From: Fontisphaera persica
GTDB lineage: Bacteria > Verrucomicrobiota > Verrucomicrobiia > Limisphaerales > Fontisphaeraceae
Assembly (NCBI RefSeq): GCF_024832785.1
Contig: NZ_CP116615.1
Location: 372,001-436,000 of the forward strand
Direction: 5' to 3'
DNA: 64,000 nucleotides
Shown piece after piece: positions 15,685 through 25,354 of the stretch. The translations under genes were made by a program, and so were the position numbers. The number at the start of each line of letters is the position of its first letter. The first letter of the stretch is position 1. The notes under the pieces were generated by a model. That model saw only the letters and a list, made by a program, of their open reading frames with translations. It did no database searches and was not told the origin of the DNA.

Positions 15685-16305
15685 TTAATCCAGCCGCTTG
15701 ACGCGAATGTTTTTGAAACGCACCACGCTTTTGGGGTCATGAGCCTGGAGGGCAAAGGTGCCTTCATCCAGTTTGCGCGTGAAATCATTGCCCGGTTTTT
15801 TGTCGGGCGGCTCGGTGTAGTCCACCACCACCTTGTCATTGATTTTCACAATGACGCGGTTGCCCTGGACAAGGATGGTTTGGGTCCACCATTCCTTGTC
15901 TTTGGCGGCGGTTTCGCGCACATTCACCACATCGTACAGACTGCCGGTGCGCTTCCAGTCGCTGTGGCTGTTGTTGACCTGGCATTCAAAGCCGTACTTG
16001 GGCCAGCCGGTGGGTTGGTAGCGGGTGTGGAAATAAATGCCGCCATTGGCGCCCGGCTCGGTCATGACGTCCACGCGCAACTCAAAATTTTTGAAGGGTT
16101 TGGGGTCGCCCACATAGAACAGATGGCAACGGTCTCCGCGGGTGACCAGCGCGCCGTCCTCAATTTTCCAGGTGTTGGTGTTTTCGGTGGCCATCCGCCA
16201 GCCGTTGAAGGTTTTGCCGTCAAACAACGCCACAAAACCCGGTTCCACTCCTGCGGCGGAGGCGAGCACCGCCGAGGCCAACAAACTCAGCAAGCAGTTT
16301 TTCAT
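15685..16305 (-). CDS. Exported DUF1080 (3-keto-disaccharide hydrolase-like) protein
   Basis: 206 residues from the ATG complementary to 16303-16305. A short signal peptide (LLSLLASAVLASAAG) precedes the concanavalin-like DUF1080 fold: FVALFDGKTFNGW near 24-36, WKIEDGALV, FKNFELRVDV, GGIYFHTRY, YGFECQVNN and the C-terminal FKNIRVKRL. The family is very abundant in planctomycetes and verrucomicrobia, and some members hydrolyse 3-keto-glycosides made by Gfo/Idh/MocA oxidoreductases. Single-domain form. The nearest Gfo/Idh/MocA gene in this window is at 34894, not adjacent. Confidence 0.88.
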   Translation of the reverse strand: MKNCLLSLLASAVLASAAGVEPGFVALFDGKTFNGWRMATENTNTWKIEDGALVTRGDRCHLFYVGDPKPFKNFELRVDVMTEPGANGGIYFHTRYQPTGWPKYGFECQVNNSHSDWKRTGSLYDVVNVRETAAKDKEWWTQTILVQGNRVIVKINDKVVVDYTEPPDKKPGNDFTRKLDEGTFALQAHDPKSVVRFKNIRVKRLD

Positions 16306-16413
16306 GGCGGGCAAGGGTGCCTCAAACCGGCTGCACCTGCAAGCCAGAAGAAAACCCCCGTGCTGCATTTGCCGTTGAGCGTGCCGTTGGGAATGTGGCA
16401 TGTTACCGGCGCG

Positions 16414-16734
16414 ATGAACGAAGCCATTGAACGTCATCGGGCCAGAGTGGCCCAGTTTCCCGACCATGAGCTGCCGCGCTTCAGCCTGGGCAAGGCGCTT
16501 TTTGACGCGGGTGAGTATGCCGAGGCGAAGGAGCACTTTCAGGTGGCGTTGAAGCTCAAACCCGACTGGATGGCGGTGCAAATTTTGCTGGCGCGCTGCG
16601 AGTTGATGCTGGGCAATCGCGAGGCGGCCCGCCAGGCATTGGAGCGGGCGCGGGTGCTGGCGGAACAGCAAAATCATGCGGGGCCCAAGGCGGAGGTGGA
16701 GCAATTACTGGAGGATTTGGAGCGGCAGGATTGA
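16414..16734 (+). CDS. Small tetratricopeptide-repeat protein
   Basis: 106 residues, three helical-hairpin repeats and little else. The best repeats are PRFSLGKALFDAGEYAEAKEH and VQILLARCELMLGNREAARQA, with the TPR consensus Gly/Ala and Tyr/Ala positions. No signal peptide or membrane helix, so cytoplasmic. An in-frame ATG 21 nt upstream would add seven residues. Divergent from the DUF1080 gene (108 bp between starts) and 15 bp upstream of the sulfatase gene, with which it may be cotranscribed. It probably acts as an adaptor; partner unknown. Confidence 0.75.
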   Translation: MNEAIERHRARVAQFPDHELPRFSLGKALFDAGEYAEAKEHFQVALKLKPDWMAVQILLARCELMLGNREAARQALERARVLAEQQNHAGPKAEVEQLLEDLERQD

Positions 16735-16749
16735 AAAAGCGGGAATCCC

Positions 16750-18054
16750 ATGGCGCCACGTTATTTATTATACCTGGGAAAATGCAGCCTGGTGGCCATG
16801 CTCCTGCAGTGGTGGCCGCTGGCCGCGGCACCAGCGCCCAACCTGGTGATGATTGTTTCCGATGACCACGCGTGGACGGATTACGGCTTCATGGGCCATC
16901 CGTATTTGCGCACGCCACATTTGGACCGTTTGGCGCGGGAAAGCCTGGTGTTTACGCGCGCCTATGTGCCTGCCAGTTTATGTTGTCCCAGTCTGGCCTC
17001 CCTGATTACAGGACGCTATCCGCATCAGCACAAGATTACCAGCAATGACCCGCCGCTGCCGCCGGGCATGACGCCGGCGCAGTTTTATAAAACCCCGGCA
17101 TTTCAGGAGGGACGCGAAGTCATGAACCGGCACCTGGAAAGCGTGCCCACACTGCCCCGGCTGTTGAAGGAGCGGGGGTACTGGTGTTTGCAAACTGGCA
17201 AGTGGTGGCAGGGGGATTACACGCGGGGAGGATTCACCCACGGCATGACCCGGGGCGGGCGGCATGGCGATGAAGGATTGGACATTGGGCGCAAGACGAT
17301 GCAACCCATCTATGATTTCATAGCCCGGGCCCGGGCCGAACAGCGGCCCTTCATGGTGTGGTACGCCCCGATGATGCCGCACGATCCGCATACACCCCCG
17401 GAGCGATTGTTGGAGCATTACCGGCCGCTGACGCCCTCCCTGCATGTGGCGCGTTACTGGGCCATGGTGGAATGGTTTGATGAGACGGTGGGGGAGTTGT
17501 TGCAATACTTGGACGCGCAACGGCTGGCGACCAATACCCTCGTGGTTTATCTGGCCGACAATGGCTGGATTCAGAGCGAGGATAATCCACGCTATGCGCC
17601 CAAATCCAAACAATCCCCCTATGACGGCGGGTTGCGCACGCCGCTGATGTTACGATGGCCGGGGAGAATAAGGCCGGCGTTGCGCCCCACACCGGTGTCG
17701 TCGGTGGATGTTTTGCCCACGCTGGTCAAGCTCATGCAATTGCCGCGGATGACGGACTTACCGGGTGTTGATTTGTTGGACGAGCGGGCGGTGAGACGCA
17801 GACCGGCCATTTTTGGGGAGTGCCACACGCACAACGCGGTGGACTTGCACCAGCCCGCCTCGAGCCTGCGCTGGCGCTGGGTGGTGGCGGGGGATTGGAA
17901 ATTAATAGTTCCCCATCCGGCCAATGAACCGGAGGGGTCGCTGGAACTTTACCATCTGGGGCGAGATTCTCGGGAACAGCAAAATCTCGCCTCCCGTGAG
18001 CCGCGGCGGGTGGCTCGTTTGCAGGCCATGTTGGATGCGTGGTGGCGGCCTTGA
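16750..18054 (+). CDS. Exported sulfatase-family protein with an atypical C-C-P-S-L signature
   Basis: 434 residues. A signal peptide ends near residue 28. Alkaline-phosphatase-superfamily landmarks follow: NLVMIVSDDHAWTDYG (31-46, metal-binding Asp39), the formylglycine region SLCCPSLASLITGRYPH (77-93), FMVWYAPMMPHDPH and VVYLADNGW, then YDGGLRTPLMLRWPG. Sulfatases need the signature C-x-[PA]-S-R to make formylglycine; here Cys78 is followed by C, P, S and then Leu82 instead of Arg. Other metal-binding positions look intact. It probably acts on sulfated polysaccharides outside the cytoplasm, or on phosphoesters if the cysteine is not converted. It is convergent with clpS, 13 bp away. Confidence 0.88.
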   Translation: MAPRYLLYLGKCSLVAMLLQWWPLAAAPAPNLVMIVSDDHAWTDYGFMGHPYLRTPHLDRLARESLVFTRAYVPASLCCPSLASLITGRYPHQHKITSNDPPLPPGMTPAQFYKTPAFQEGREVMNRHLESVPTLPRLLKERGYWCLQTGKWWQGDYTRGGFTHGMTRGGRHGDEGLDIGRKTMQPIYDFIARARAEQRPFMVWYAPMMPHDPHTPPERLLEHYRPLTPSLHVARYWAMVEWFDETVGELLQYLDAQRLATNTLVVYLADNGWIQSEDNPRYAPKSKQSPYDGGLRTPLMLRWPGRIRPALRPTPVSSVDVLPTLVKLMQLPRMTDLPGVDLLDERAVRRRPAIFGECHTHNAVDLHQPASSLRWRWVVAGDWKLIVPHPANEPEGSLELYHLGRDSREQQNLASREPRRVARLQAMLDAWWRP

Positions 18055-22618: not shown

Positions 22619-25354
22619 ATGAACTCCTCGCCCTGGACCAGAGGCTGCTGGTGCTTTTTGTGGGTTATTTGGGCTTCAGCCTTTTTTGCCTGTGCGCAAA
22701 CCGGCTCCAATTTGGTGATCAACGGTTCTTTTGAACTGGATGCGAATGGAGACGGGGTGCCGGATGACTGGCAGCCGGCCGGTGACCGTGAAACACGCCA
22801 GGAATTGGGCCGGGAACCCCTGCCTGAAGGAGGGTATTGCGGCCGCCTCATCTGCACGTTCATGGGCAAAGATTCTCCGAGCGCGCATGCCATGATTTGC
22901 CAGGTGGGCCGGGTCGCCATGCAGCGGGGCCAATGGTATCGCCTCAGCTTCCGTGCCCGAGCCGAGGGAATCCTCAAGGGCGTATCGGTGGCCTTGAACA
23001 ATACGCGGGTCTGGAAAGGTGTGGGGCTGGATTTCGGTTTTTACGCCACGGCCCAGTGGCAGCGGTATGAGTTCGTGTTTGAGGCCACCGACAACCTGCC
23101 TGCCGAGAGCAGCCGCCTGCAATTTTGGTTCAAATCCACGGGCACACTCTGGCTGGATGACGTGGAGCTGGTGGCCATTCCGGGAGGCCGCCAATGGCAT
23201 CCCCAGTGGAGCGCTGAGGGGGTGGTGAATCTGGTTCCCAATGGCGCGTTCGAGTGCGGCGCCGCCCATTGGGGCAGTTACAACAATGAGCCGGGCGGAT
23301 GGGGCAATCAATTATATCAGTTGGTGGGGACTTGGCAGCCGGTGGGGGGAGCGGATGGCGGAGGGTGTTTGCAAATTAAGTGGGACCCGGAAACCGCCCC
23401 CGTCTTCTACTTTGACTATTTCCAGGCCGTGCGCCGTCCGGTCCGCCGGATGCTCGCCGCCAATTTGGGATGGTTGAAGGTAACCCCTGGTGAGCCTATG
23501 CAGTTCTCCGTGGAGATGCGCTCCGAGCCGGCGGGCATCCCCGCCACATTGACAATCGTGCAGGCGGAAGGACCCACGCGACAGCAAACGGTGCGCCTGA
23601 CGCCACAATGGCAGCGTTATGCCCTGAATTTTCAGCCTGACCGGCCGTTTGTGTTTGTGGCGGCTGGGCCGGATTTCCTATCATCCACCGGCCCTGCGGG
23701 CACAGTCTGGGTGGACCGCGTGGCGCTGCAACGCCAAAGCGATTCAGGTTCTTTCCAGCCGCGAACGCCGCTGGAGACTTCTCTGGAGACACCGGTGGTC
23801 GGCAACATTTTCACCAATCCAGCCGCCGGGCTGACGCTTATTCTGCGCGGGGCGGCTCATGGGCAAAATCCCAGGCGGGTGGGGGGACGCTTGTTAATCA
23901 CCGATTTTTTTGACCGGGTGGTGTATGAGCAAAATCTGGAAATCCAGTTCACGCAACAGGTGTCACCCCAGATACATCGCGGGACGGTGACCTTGAAGGG
24001 GCTATTGCCCAACCGGCTGGGTTTCTATCGGGTGACGTGGGCTGCGGCGGGTGGGACGAATACCCTCCGTTGTGCGCTTGTTGAACCGGTGACGCCGCAG
24101 GCGGAGGGCGCCATTGGCATGAATCATGCCTACCCGTGGGATTTTTTGGTGCATTTGGCGCATCTGGCGGGCATCCGGTGGTGGCGGGACTGGTCGGCCA
24201 AGTGGCATGAAGTGGAAAAAGCGCCGGGTCAGTGGAATTTTGCAGCGGCCGATGAACAAATCGAACGGGTGTTGCGCCTGGGCGGCGAGCCGCTGGTGCT
24301 GCTGCCCTTTCCATCCTCCTGGTGGTCCTCCCGCTGGGCGGCGTCCACCAACAACCTTCCCCACGCGCAGGACTATGAAAGCCAGCGCCGTTTTGTAGCT
24401 CAGGCTCCGCAGCGATGGGAGGACTTTGGCACTTACGCCGCAGCGGTGGCGCGGCATTACGGGGGGCGGGTCCGGGCTTACCACATTCTGAATGAACCCA
24501 TTTATACGAGTTACGCCCTGCCGCGCGCCGATGGTCATTCCATGGCGGATTATTTGCAGGCGGTGGAGACGGCTCACCGTGCCATCCGGGCGGTGGATAA
24601 AAAGGTGAAGATTGTGGGGGGGATTGGCACCGGCCCCGACGCCGGTTTGACTTTGGAATTTGTCGAGAAGGGCGGATTGCGGCATGTGGATATTCTGGAT
24701 TTGCATCAATATGACCCCCCGGCGCCCGCGGAAAATCTGGAAGCATCCTATGTCACCTTGGAAAATTTGATGGCCCGCCACGGCGGTCCCAAGCCGGTGT
24801 GGATTACGGAATACGGATGTTATGCGGACGATGACCCCGCCTGCATTCCCCCGCGCACCGGCGATGCGGCCATGACGCGCTCGCGCTGGCCGAGCGAGCA
24901 GGCGGCAGCCGAGCACCTGGTGAAATTCACCGCCATCACCTTTGCCCACGGCGCGCGCAAAATCTTTTTGCATGCGGGCAGTTCCGCGCAAATCAACGGC
25001 CCCAATGAAGGCGGCATCTTTTTTGAATATGGCGGCCAACCCCGCAAGATGTATGCTGCTGCCGCCGTCTTGAATCGGTTGTTGGGCACACCGGAGGATT
25101 ATCTGGGAGCCGTCACTCAGGGGACGGGGCGTCTTTATCTTTTTCGCAAAGGCAGGCAAAGCGTGGGCATTGCCTGGAGCGCCAAACCCATCGCCCTGGA
25201 CCTGTCCAGGGGAATTCGGGTCTGGGACATCATGGGCAACCCGGTGAGGGAGGGACAATTCACGCTTGCGGATTCGCCGGTTTATTTTAGCGAGTCCAGT
25301 CCCGACGCCCGCGGATTGCGCCGCCTCTTTGAAGCGCGGACGGCCCGGCCGTGA
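22619..25354 (+). CDS. Large exported glycoside hydrolase, GH39-like (clan A) with N-terminal carbohydrate-binding modules
   Basis: 911 residues. A signal peptide (about 1-27) is followed by two galactose-binding-like modules, each opening with the phrase N-L-V-x-N-G-[SA]-F-E: about 31-195 (LVINGSFELDANGDGVPDDW) and about 205-375 (LVPNGAFECGAAHWG). A beta-sandwich linker (about 395-490) precedes the TIM barrel (about 500-850). The acid/base candidate is Glu626 in YHILNEPIYTSY and the nucleophile candidate Glu731 in VWITEYGC, the clan-A spacing. GH39 enzymes include beta-xylosidases and iduronidases; the substrate here is open. It directly follows lpd with its own promoter and ends 5 bp before a convergent AMP-ligase gene. 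Confidence 0.82.
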   Translation: MNSSPWTRGCWCFLWVIWASAFFACAQTGSNLVINGSFELDANGDGVPDDWQPAGDRETRQELGREPLPEGGYCGRLICTFMGKDSPSAHAMICQVGRVAMQRGQWYRLSFRARAEGILKGVSVALNNTRVWKGVGLDFGFYATAQWQRYEFVFEATDNLPAESSRLQFWFKSTGTLWLDDVELVAIPGGRQWHPQWSAEGVVNLVPNGAFECGAAHWGSYNNEPGGWGNQLYQLVGTWQPVGGADGGGCLQIKWDPETAPVFYFDYFQAVRRPVRRMLAANLGWLKVTPGEPMQFSVEMRSEPAGIPATLTIVQAEGPTRQQTVRLTPQWQRYALNFQPDRPFVFVAAGPDFLSSTGPAGTVWVDRVALQRQSDSGSFQPRTPLETSLETPVVGNIFTNPAAGLTLILRGAAHGQNPRRVGGRLLITDFFDRVVYEQNLEIQFTQQVSPQIHRGTVTLKGLLPNRLGFYRVTWAAAGGTNTLRCALVEPVTPQAEGAIGMNHAYPWDFLVHLAHLAGIRWWRDWSAKWHEVEKAPGQWNFAAADEQIERVLRLGGEPLVLLPFPSSWWSSRWAASTNNLPHAQDYESQRRFVAQAPQRWEDFGTYAAAVARHYGGRVRAYHILNEPIYTSYALPRADGHSMADYLQAVETAHRAIRAVDKKVKIVGGIGTGPDAGLTLEFVEKGGLRHVDILDLHQYDPPAPAENLEASYVTLENLMARHGGPKPVWITEYGCYADDDPACIPPRTGDAAMTRSRWPSEQAAAEHLVKFTAITFAHGARKIFLHAGSSAQINGPNEGGIFFEYGGQPRKMYAAAAVLNRLLGTPEDYLGAVTQGTGRLYLFRKGRQSVGIAWSAKPIALDLSRGIRVWDIMGNPVREGQFTLADSPVYFSESSPDARGLRRLFEARTARP

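Follow-up and report, generated by a model that had tools for sequence, protein, structure and literature searches.

A sulfatase gene with an altered signature

The stretch of DNA analyzed here (the window) comprises 64,000 nucleotides of the Fontisphaera persica contig NZ_CP116615.1 and carries a sulfatase gene whose product scores 169.7 bits against PF00884, the domain of S1 sulfatases (cut-off 25). Its signature reads SLC78-C79-P80-S81-L82-ASLITGRYPH, the C-C-P-S-L part being encoded at 16981-16995, with Leu in the place of the signature Arg. An earlier note on this DNA had singled out this substitution, and the substitution is real. The gene and its relevant residues are given below in window positions, with counts for the family of open reading frames (ORFs) to which the gene belongs.

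16750..18054, + strand: Leu-type sulfatase gene, 434 amino acids, ATG start, PF00884, probable exported protein as judged from a hydrophobic N-terminus
16861..16866, + strand: Asp38-Asp39, calcium ligands, in 149/149 covering family ORFs; role by homology (PMC4014121 Table 2)
16981..16983, + strand: Cys78 (TGT), nucleophile position, in 149/149 covering family ORFs
16993..16995, + strand: Leu82 (CTG) instead of the signature Arg; Leu in 150/150 covering family ORFs, Arg in 71/71 comparison ORFs
17044..17046, + strand: Asn99, at Cys+21, in 151/152 family ORFs
17200..17202, + strand: Lys151, active-site Lys of the G-K-W motif, in 152/152 family ORFs
17206..17208, + strand: Trp153 instead of the active-site His (AtsA His115, SGSH His125), in 152/152 family ORFs
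17380..17391, + strand: His211 (sulfate-binding/acid His) and family-specific His214, in P-H-x-P-H, in 152/152 and 151/152 family ORFs
17557..17562, + strand: Asp270-Asn271, calcium ligands, 152/152 each
17608..17610, + strand: Lys287, sulfate-binding Lys (AtsA Lys375), in 152/152 family ORFs

An opposite-strand ORF overlaps the gene at 16978-17613. The window also contains an ORF of 911 residues at 22619-25354 (+), for which Pfam gives no hit at E 0.001.

According to the earlier note, the active site otherwise looks intact. This description fits Asp38, Asp39, Lys151, His211, Asp270, Asn271, and Lys287, but not the His of the G-K-W-H motif, which is Trp153. An AlphaFold2 model built from an 18-row alignment (m484f8681ba34; mean pLDDT 87.6, pTM 0.88) has 9fo1, an S1_16 enzyme, as its top match (VIA Z 38.5, rmsd 2.9, 373 aligned residues, 30% identity; Foldseek E 6e-29), a rank shared, to within 1 Z, with 7stv and other entries. 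Over residues 26-434, the predicted fold is that of the S1_16 and S1_19 carrageenan sulfatases (9fo1 and 6prm) and of other PF00884 S1 enzymes. The calcium ligands (Asp/Asp/Asp/Asn), the Cys of the nucleophile site, and the equivalents of AtsA Lys113, His211, and Lys375 are common to S1 sulfatases and the Leu family, whereas the signature Arg (AtsA Arg55) and the hydroxyl-binding His (AtsA His115) are missing from the latter; 9fo1 and 6prm have CSPTR and CGPSR, respectively, both with GKWH. The window protein, having the fold, nucleophile, calcium site, and sulfate pocket but lacking the Arg, is a sulfatase variant rather than a proven formylglycine sulfatase.

A discrete family with a paired replacement

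The family was delimited as 152 non-identical ORFs (from 158) with profile scores of at least 330 bits, a few truncated ones included, and a gene delimited differently in two loci may be represented twice among them. For comparison, 77 distinct sulfatase ORFs (from 96) scoring 60-330 bits were taken from the same DNA, 5 to 7 of which miss a given Arg, Lys, or His position. Whole family ORFs reach about 343 bits or more (the lowest, in locus L206, has 343), whereas other sulfatases score 233 or less and none falls between, a gap valid for whole ORFs, with two stop-bearing fragments of genome G287 and a partial match of G242 lying at 214-239 bits. Relatives in named genomes were fetched with six peptide patterns, none of which is the signature motif. 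Given that two columns alone could not produce a gap of about 110 bits and that the patterns exclude the signature, the possibility that the family is an artefact of motif-based selection is rejected. The CCPSL-type variant, which the earlier note had considered might be unique to one sequence, forms a conserved subfamily.

Position 82 is Leu in every family ORF that covers it and in all 103 covering members of a smaller relative set. All six Leu codons occur there (CTC 58, CTG 47, TTG 21, CTT 13, CTA 9, and TTA 2), and since the residue is unchanged in every covering relative despite this variety of codons, a sequencing error or an isolated mutation is ruled out. The whole five-residue motif is covered by 149 of the 152 ORFs (one more covers Leu only, and two cover none of it), reading CCPSL in 98, CRPSL in 33, CSPSL in 9, CRPAL in 4, CRASL in 2, and CNPSL, CGPSL, and CAPSL in one each. 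Pro80 is kept in 147 of 149 and Ser81 in 145 of 149, and the flanking T-G of the signature is also retained. The consensus of the family is C-x-[PA]-[SA]-L plus G-K-[WFYLI]-W, and Arg171, His172, Arg181, and His214 are near-invariant and specific to it. The consensus residue at Cys-13, according to PMC6189696, is Gly, which 67 of 74 comparison ORFs have, whereas 123 of 149 family ORFs have Ser, a further drift away from the usual signature context.

The Leu is invariably accompanied by Trp at the site where the G-K-W-H motif has His. Among the comparison ORFs covering each site, Arg is present in 71/71, Lys in 72/72, and His in 51/70; 6 of the 19 Arg-type ORFs lacking an aligned His have one a residue further on, and 4 of the 70 have Trp there. 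Because the His is absent from these 19 and from phosphonate monoester hydrolase as well, Trp153 alone is not diagnostic: loss of the His by itself is not rare, while loss of the Arg is seen only in the Leu family among the ORFs compared. No intermediate, either Leu with His or Arg inside the family, occurs among the 152 family and 77 comparison ORFs. By parsimony, a single Leu/Arg change suffices over the 141 lettered rows of a 143-row tree, a number that becomes two for Leu when the two gap rows are counted as a third group; the tree was made by a quick search after thinning by identity and length, with the trait columns left in.

The family is under purifying selection and does not consist of decaying genes as a whole. 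The median dN/dS is 0.105 and the maximum 0.217 over 57 close pairs (the usable ones of the 60 most similar taken from 62), few residues of the family are conserved as well as the catalytic ones, and a few single copies have internal stops.

The 206 relatives found by the scan of named genomes were reduced to 80 loci, whose titles are mostly Verrucomicrobiota or Planctomycetota, with one Fimbriimonadaceae. In the window's order, 22 of 58 genomes, F. persica included, contain a relative with an E of 1e-60 or lower; the only other searched genome of the genus has none, so the gene is patchy. With an 18-member profile, at least 55 of 286 genomes of the class match at 388 bits or more and at least 31 of 337 genomes of the phylum match at E 1e-70, both being lower bounds, as the best six and the best five candidates per genome were scored, respectively. 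As many as five family copies occur per genome; in G520, one of them has a stop. One member (L032:1447-3651) is fused to an alpha/beta-hydrolase domain of the BD-FAE esterase type. The family is also carried by metagenome bins under the names of Klebsiella pneumoniae or Akkermansia muciniphila (L057, L044, L047, and L056), which look mislabeled.

Roles of the replaced residues in characterized sulfatases

The Arg at the AtsA Arg55 position is 99% conserved in 4058 aligned sulfatases (PMC5066984), and closely matching conservation of the signature Arg has been reported for 2040 sulfatases of these phyla (PMC6388578). It belongs to the recognition motif CxPxR of the formylglycine-generating enzyme (FGE) (PMC4505483, PMC7279497). 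In human sulfamidase, the free formylglycine hydroxyl is held by Arg74, Lys123, and His125, the last of which deprotonates it, leading to the expulsion of sulfate, and the sulfate is bound by His181 and Arg282 (PMC4014121). The description of choline sulfatase is similar, His104 acting at the same step and Asn75 contacting the sulfate (PMC9063841); by its spacing, Asn99 of the window protein may be the counterpart of this Asn75 (Cys54+21). In the Leu family, two of the three contacts to the hydroxyl that only formylglycine has are thus gone, and the metal and sulfate sites are kept.

Sulfatase folds that work without the modification are on record. Choline sulfatase of Ensifer meliloti, when made in E. 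coli with 0% formylglycine, shows repeated turnover with a kcat of 0.27 per s on choline sulfate, and phosphonate monoester hydrolase (PMH) is likewise active when unmodified, although lack of formylglycine is expected to slow a sulfatase 5- to 2500-fold (PMC6189696). The choline sulfatase precedent is not clean, since another group found formylglycine in the E. coli-made enzyme, whose C54S variant has under 1% activity (PMC9063841). Turnover with a plain Cys is what is proposed here for the Leu family, but choline sulfatase keeps the signature Arg and its described His104 (PMC9063841) and is meant for conversion, whereas in the Leu family both are replaced in the gene; the window protein scores 117.2 bits with the choline sulfatase model TIGR03417, under its curated cut-off of 433.45. 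PMH resembles the family in acting without formylglycine (PMC6189696) and in having an altered hydroxyl-binding set, in BcPMH with His changed to Thr and Lys to Tyr (PMC4014121 Table 2). However, PMH retains the Arg and has lost the Lys, while the Leu family retains the Lys and has lost the Arg, and the window protein, with Leu82, Lys151, and Trp153, does not have the PMH residue set.

A hydrophobic residue for AtsA Arg55 is already known from one paper found, PMC5066984, in which nine sequences with Ile or Leu, from Lentisphaerae and Planctomycetes, i.e., the same or related phyla, are listed only as oddities that 'may be inactive'. These nine are likely members of the Leu family. In the literature searched, supplements aside, nothing was found on how large the family is, on the Trp that accompanies the Leu, on selection on the two residues, or on the members carried by plasmids; among the papers listed as containing the motif by name, none is a sulfatase paper by its title. 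The earlier note had also allowed that the Leu signature might be a known, fully converted one, and no report of this was found in the same literature, again apart from supplements.

Genomic context and candidate substrates

Two relatives with 45-46% identity, both CRPSL plus GKWW, are located on Alteromonadaceae plasmids. In pAlt76 of Alteromonas sp. 76-1, the family gene is preceded on its own strand by GH88 and BNR_4 genes and lies amid genes for alpha-L-rhamnosidases, L-rhamnose mutarotase, and Arg-type sulfatases. This is a published ulvan plasmid, the available text on which does not discuss the Leu-type sulfatase itself. In the Catenovulum adriaticum plasmid, the family gene adjoins an alpha-L-rhamnosidase gene, with a BNR_4 gene nearby. 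Such contexts support a catabolic sulfatase for the two plasmid members, with ulvan oligosaccharides plausibly as the substrate.

In Verrucomicrobiota and Planctomycetota, no conserved operon that names a substrate emerged from neighbor clusters of 101 loci, with annotation of 19 selected neighbors from the 66 close same-strand ones listed. Genes of the ulvan lyase, rhamnosidase, or GH88 type occur neither among the six annotated neighbors of the window gene nor among the 19 selected ones in other loci. A neighbor cluster with a sulfatase-like representative is present in 18 of the 101 loci. The window gene adjoins a PF06439 (3-keto-disaccharide hydrolase) gene at 15685-16704 (-), and PF06439 proteins also accompany family genes in L062 and L303 and, as a weak match, in L079; both sulfatase-like and PF06439 proteins are common in these bacteria. 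Two or three Leu-type sulfatases stand in tandem in L301, L302, and L303, similarly in three genomes of one genus, together with further sulfatases and, nearby, a protein roughly 1190 residues long (with cytochrome c and PF06439 domains in the L303 copy).

Maturases in Leu-bearing genomes

According to the earlier note, the maturation enzyme of this lineage might accept Leu, which made the presence of an FGE gene in the genome a matter of interest. The F. persica genome (one contig, 97% complete) contains seven PF03781 proteins, none of which matches the FGE cysteine-pair pattern, and no FGE gene was found among them. There is no anSME above the cut-off either, the single weak TIGR03942 match (42.3 bits) being in a protein nearest to NirJ1/AhbC-type models, below their cut-offs, and beside a TIGR04053 protein. 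In the same genome, 13 other sulfatases keep the signature Arg, by which a lineage-wide relaxed signature is ruled out; a tolerance of Leu limited to the family is possible. L136 (G000:C1:2140000-2142400) is PF00884-like, lacks the signature Cys, and is apparently a degenerate sulfatase copy, and the four weaker PF00884 matches of this genome (L137-L140) contain no convincing signature-bearing sulfatase ORF.

Across 80 Leu-bearing genomes, at the thresholds used, 39 have a protein in the FGE tier and 14 an anSME-like one, 3 of them having both, and 30, F. persica included, have neither. FGE was scored as present at E 1e-66 or lower, a tier in which 30 of 31 examined proteins (7 plus 23 of 24) match the Cys-pair pattern, compared with 0 of 30 lower-scoring ones; in the exception, L269, Ser stands for the second FGE Cys. 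Of the anSME matches, 13 of 14 exceed the curated cut-off and two have internal stops. The Cys-pair check was carried throughout eight of the 30 genomes with neither, the window's with its 7 PF03781 matches and seven others with 23 (none in G024), and revealed no FGE pair in these eight; the 208-bit match of G476, for example, is outside this set, and six of the 30 genomes are less than 90% complete. The Leu signature therefore does not track one maturase type, another reason why acceptance of Leu by the maturase of the whole lineage is not supported as an explanation.

It should be noted that, where checked, genomes counted as having neither FGE nor anSME possess Arg-type sulfatases, so a maturase of another kind is likely there. 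Genomes of this group (G000, G298, G265, G312, G003, G024, G461, G242, and others) hint at a maturation route of another kind, as in E. coli. Maturase absence as a proof of an unmodified Cys was dropped for this reason, and the survey does not discriminate between an unmodified Cys and formylglycine.

Possible catalytic routes

With both the Arg and the His contact to the formylglycine hydroxyl lost, the simplest reading is that the nucleophile is an unmodified Cys, for which the odds are about even. The Leu family would then be an old subfamily of the formylglycine-sulfatase fold that has given up the half of its active site devoted to formylglycine. Replacement of Arg82 by Leu and of the next active-site His by Trp would have removed the two side chains by which the second gem-diol hydroxyl is held and deprotonated; the calcium site and the sulfate pocket (Asn99, His211, and Lys287) are kept, as is Lys151. 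Cys78, presumably no longer recognized by the maturase, would stay a plain cysteine, and its thiolate would attack the sulfur, with the leaving sugar hydroxyl protonated by His211 or Lys287 and the resulting S-sulfo-cysteine intermediate hydrolyzed by water, much as alkaline phosphatase does with its phosphoserine. Likely substrates would be sulfated algal or other polysaccharides, with ulvan suggested for the two plasmid members by gene context. The parts of this proposal differ in strength: the conserved family with its paired replacement is all but certain, that the protein is a catalytically active hydrolase is predicted with high confidence, a sulfate ester is its probable substrate, and the whole, an active sulfatase working through unmodified Cys78, has about the same chance of being right as of being wrong. 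That the family represents a natural S1-fold sulfatase lineage devoid of any formylglycine, in which sulfate esters are cut by unmodified cysteine, falls somewhat short of even.

The main rival of an unmodified Cys78 is a formylglycine sulfatase made regardless, by an FGE, an anSME, or another maturase that tolerates Leu, with Trp153 and Leu82 only reshaping the pocket; it is possible, and clearly the less favored of the two. Retention of C-x-P-S and of the flanking T-G is in its favor, as the conserved Pro80 and Ser81 might be a sign of a site still read by a maturase, and bacterial FGEs convert some Arg-less tags in vitro. A known maturase type is present in 50 of the 80 Leu-bearing genomes, and the Arg-type sulfatases present, where checked, in the others make a further maturase likely. 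On the other hand, near-universal conservation of the Arg (99% of 4058 sulfatases, PMC5066984) and its place in the FGE motif (PMC4505483, PMC7279497) argue against tolerance, and so does the absence of both the Arg and the His that handle the formylglycine hydroxyl from every covering family ORF.

The earlier note had also entertained a different hydrolase using cysteine, and the joint loss of Arg and His may lean that way as far as the nucleophile is concerned. That Cys78 instead serves the hydrolysis of another ester (phosphate, phosphonate, or phosphodiester), as one more member of the promiscuous AP superfamily, is improbable: near-invariant Arg171, His172, Arg181, and His214 show a remodeled pocket, but the sulfate-pocket residues are kept, one member resides on the published ulvan plasmid among other sulfatases, and the NCBIfam scores are far under the cut-offs (PehA, 63.3 of 900 bits; PhoY, 30 of 1000). 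Least probable is a pseudo-sulfatase that lacks activity or serves for binding only, in line with the suggestion of PMC5066984 for the nine Ile/Leu sequences, an idea compatible with the loss of a residue held essential and with the few copies that have internal stops. Conservation of the catalytic residues, the low median dN/dS, the presence of up to five copies per genome (one with a stop in G520), and the member on a catabolic plasmid all speak against it.

If an unmodified Cys78 is indeed the nucleophile, formylglycine is not universal in the S1-fold sulfatase family. With a conserved family that lacks both the Arg and its partner His, and one of whose members is carried by a published ulvan plasmid, it can be tested whether the modification is dispensable. 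Should the modification prove dispensable, no maturase would be needed for producing such enzymes, and the annotation of Leu-type genes as inactive would be wrong; should residue 78 be formylglycine after all, the maturase rule CxPxR would need widening.

Other sulfatase homologs

Two further kinds of sulfatase homologs were encountered. In four genomes, homologs with D-S-A-S-R, i.e., Asp for the nucleophile Cys, and G-K-W-[AG] share loci with FGE genes (L152, L158, L253, and L262). In addition, an unannotated phage record from human feces (MT835799.1) encodes, at 15967-17190, a sulfatase homolog that is 27% identical to the window protein.
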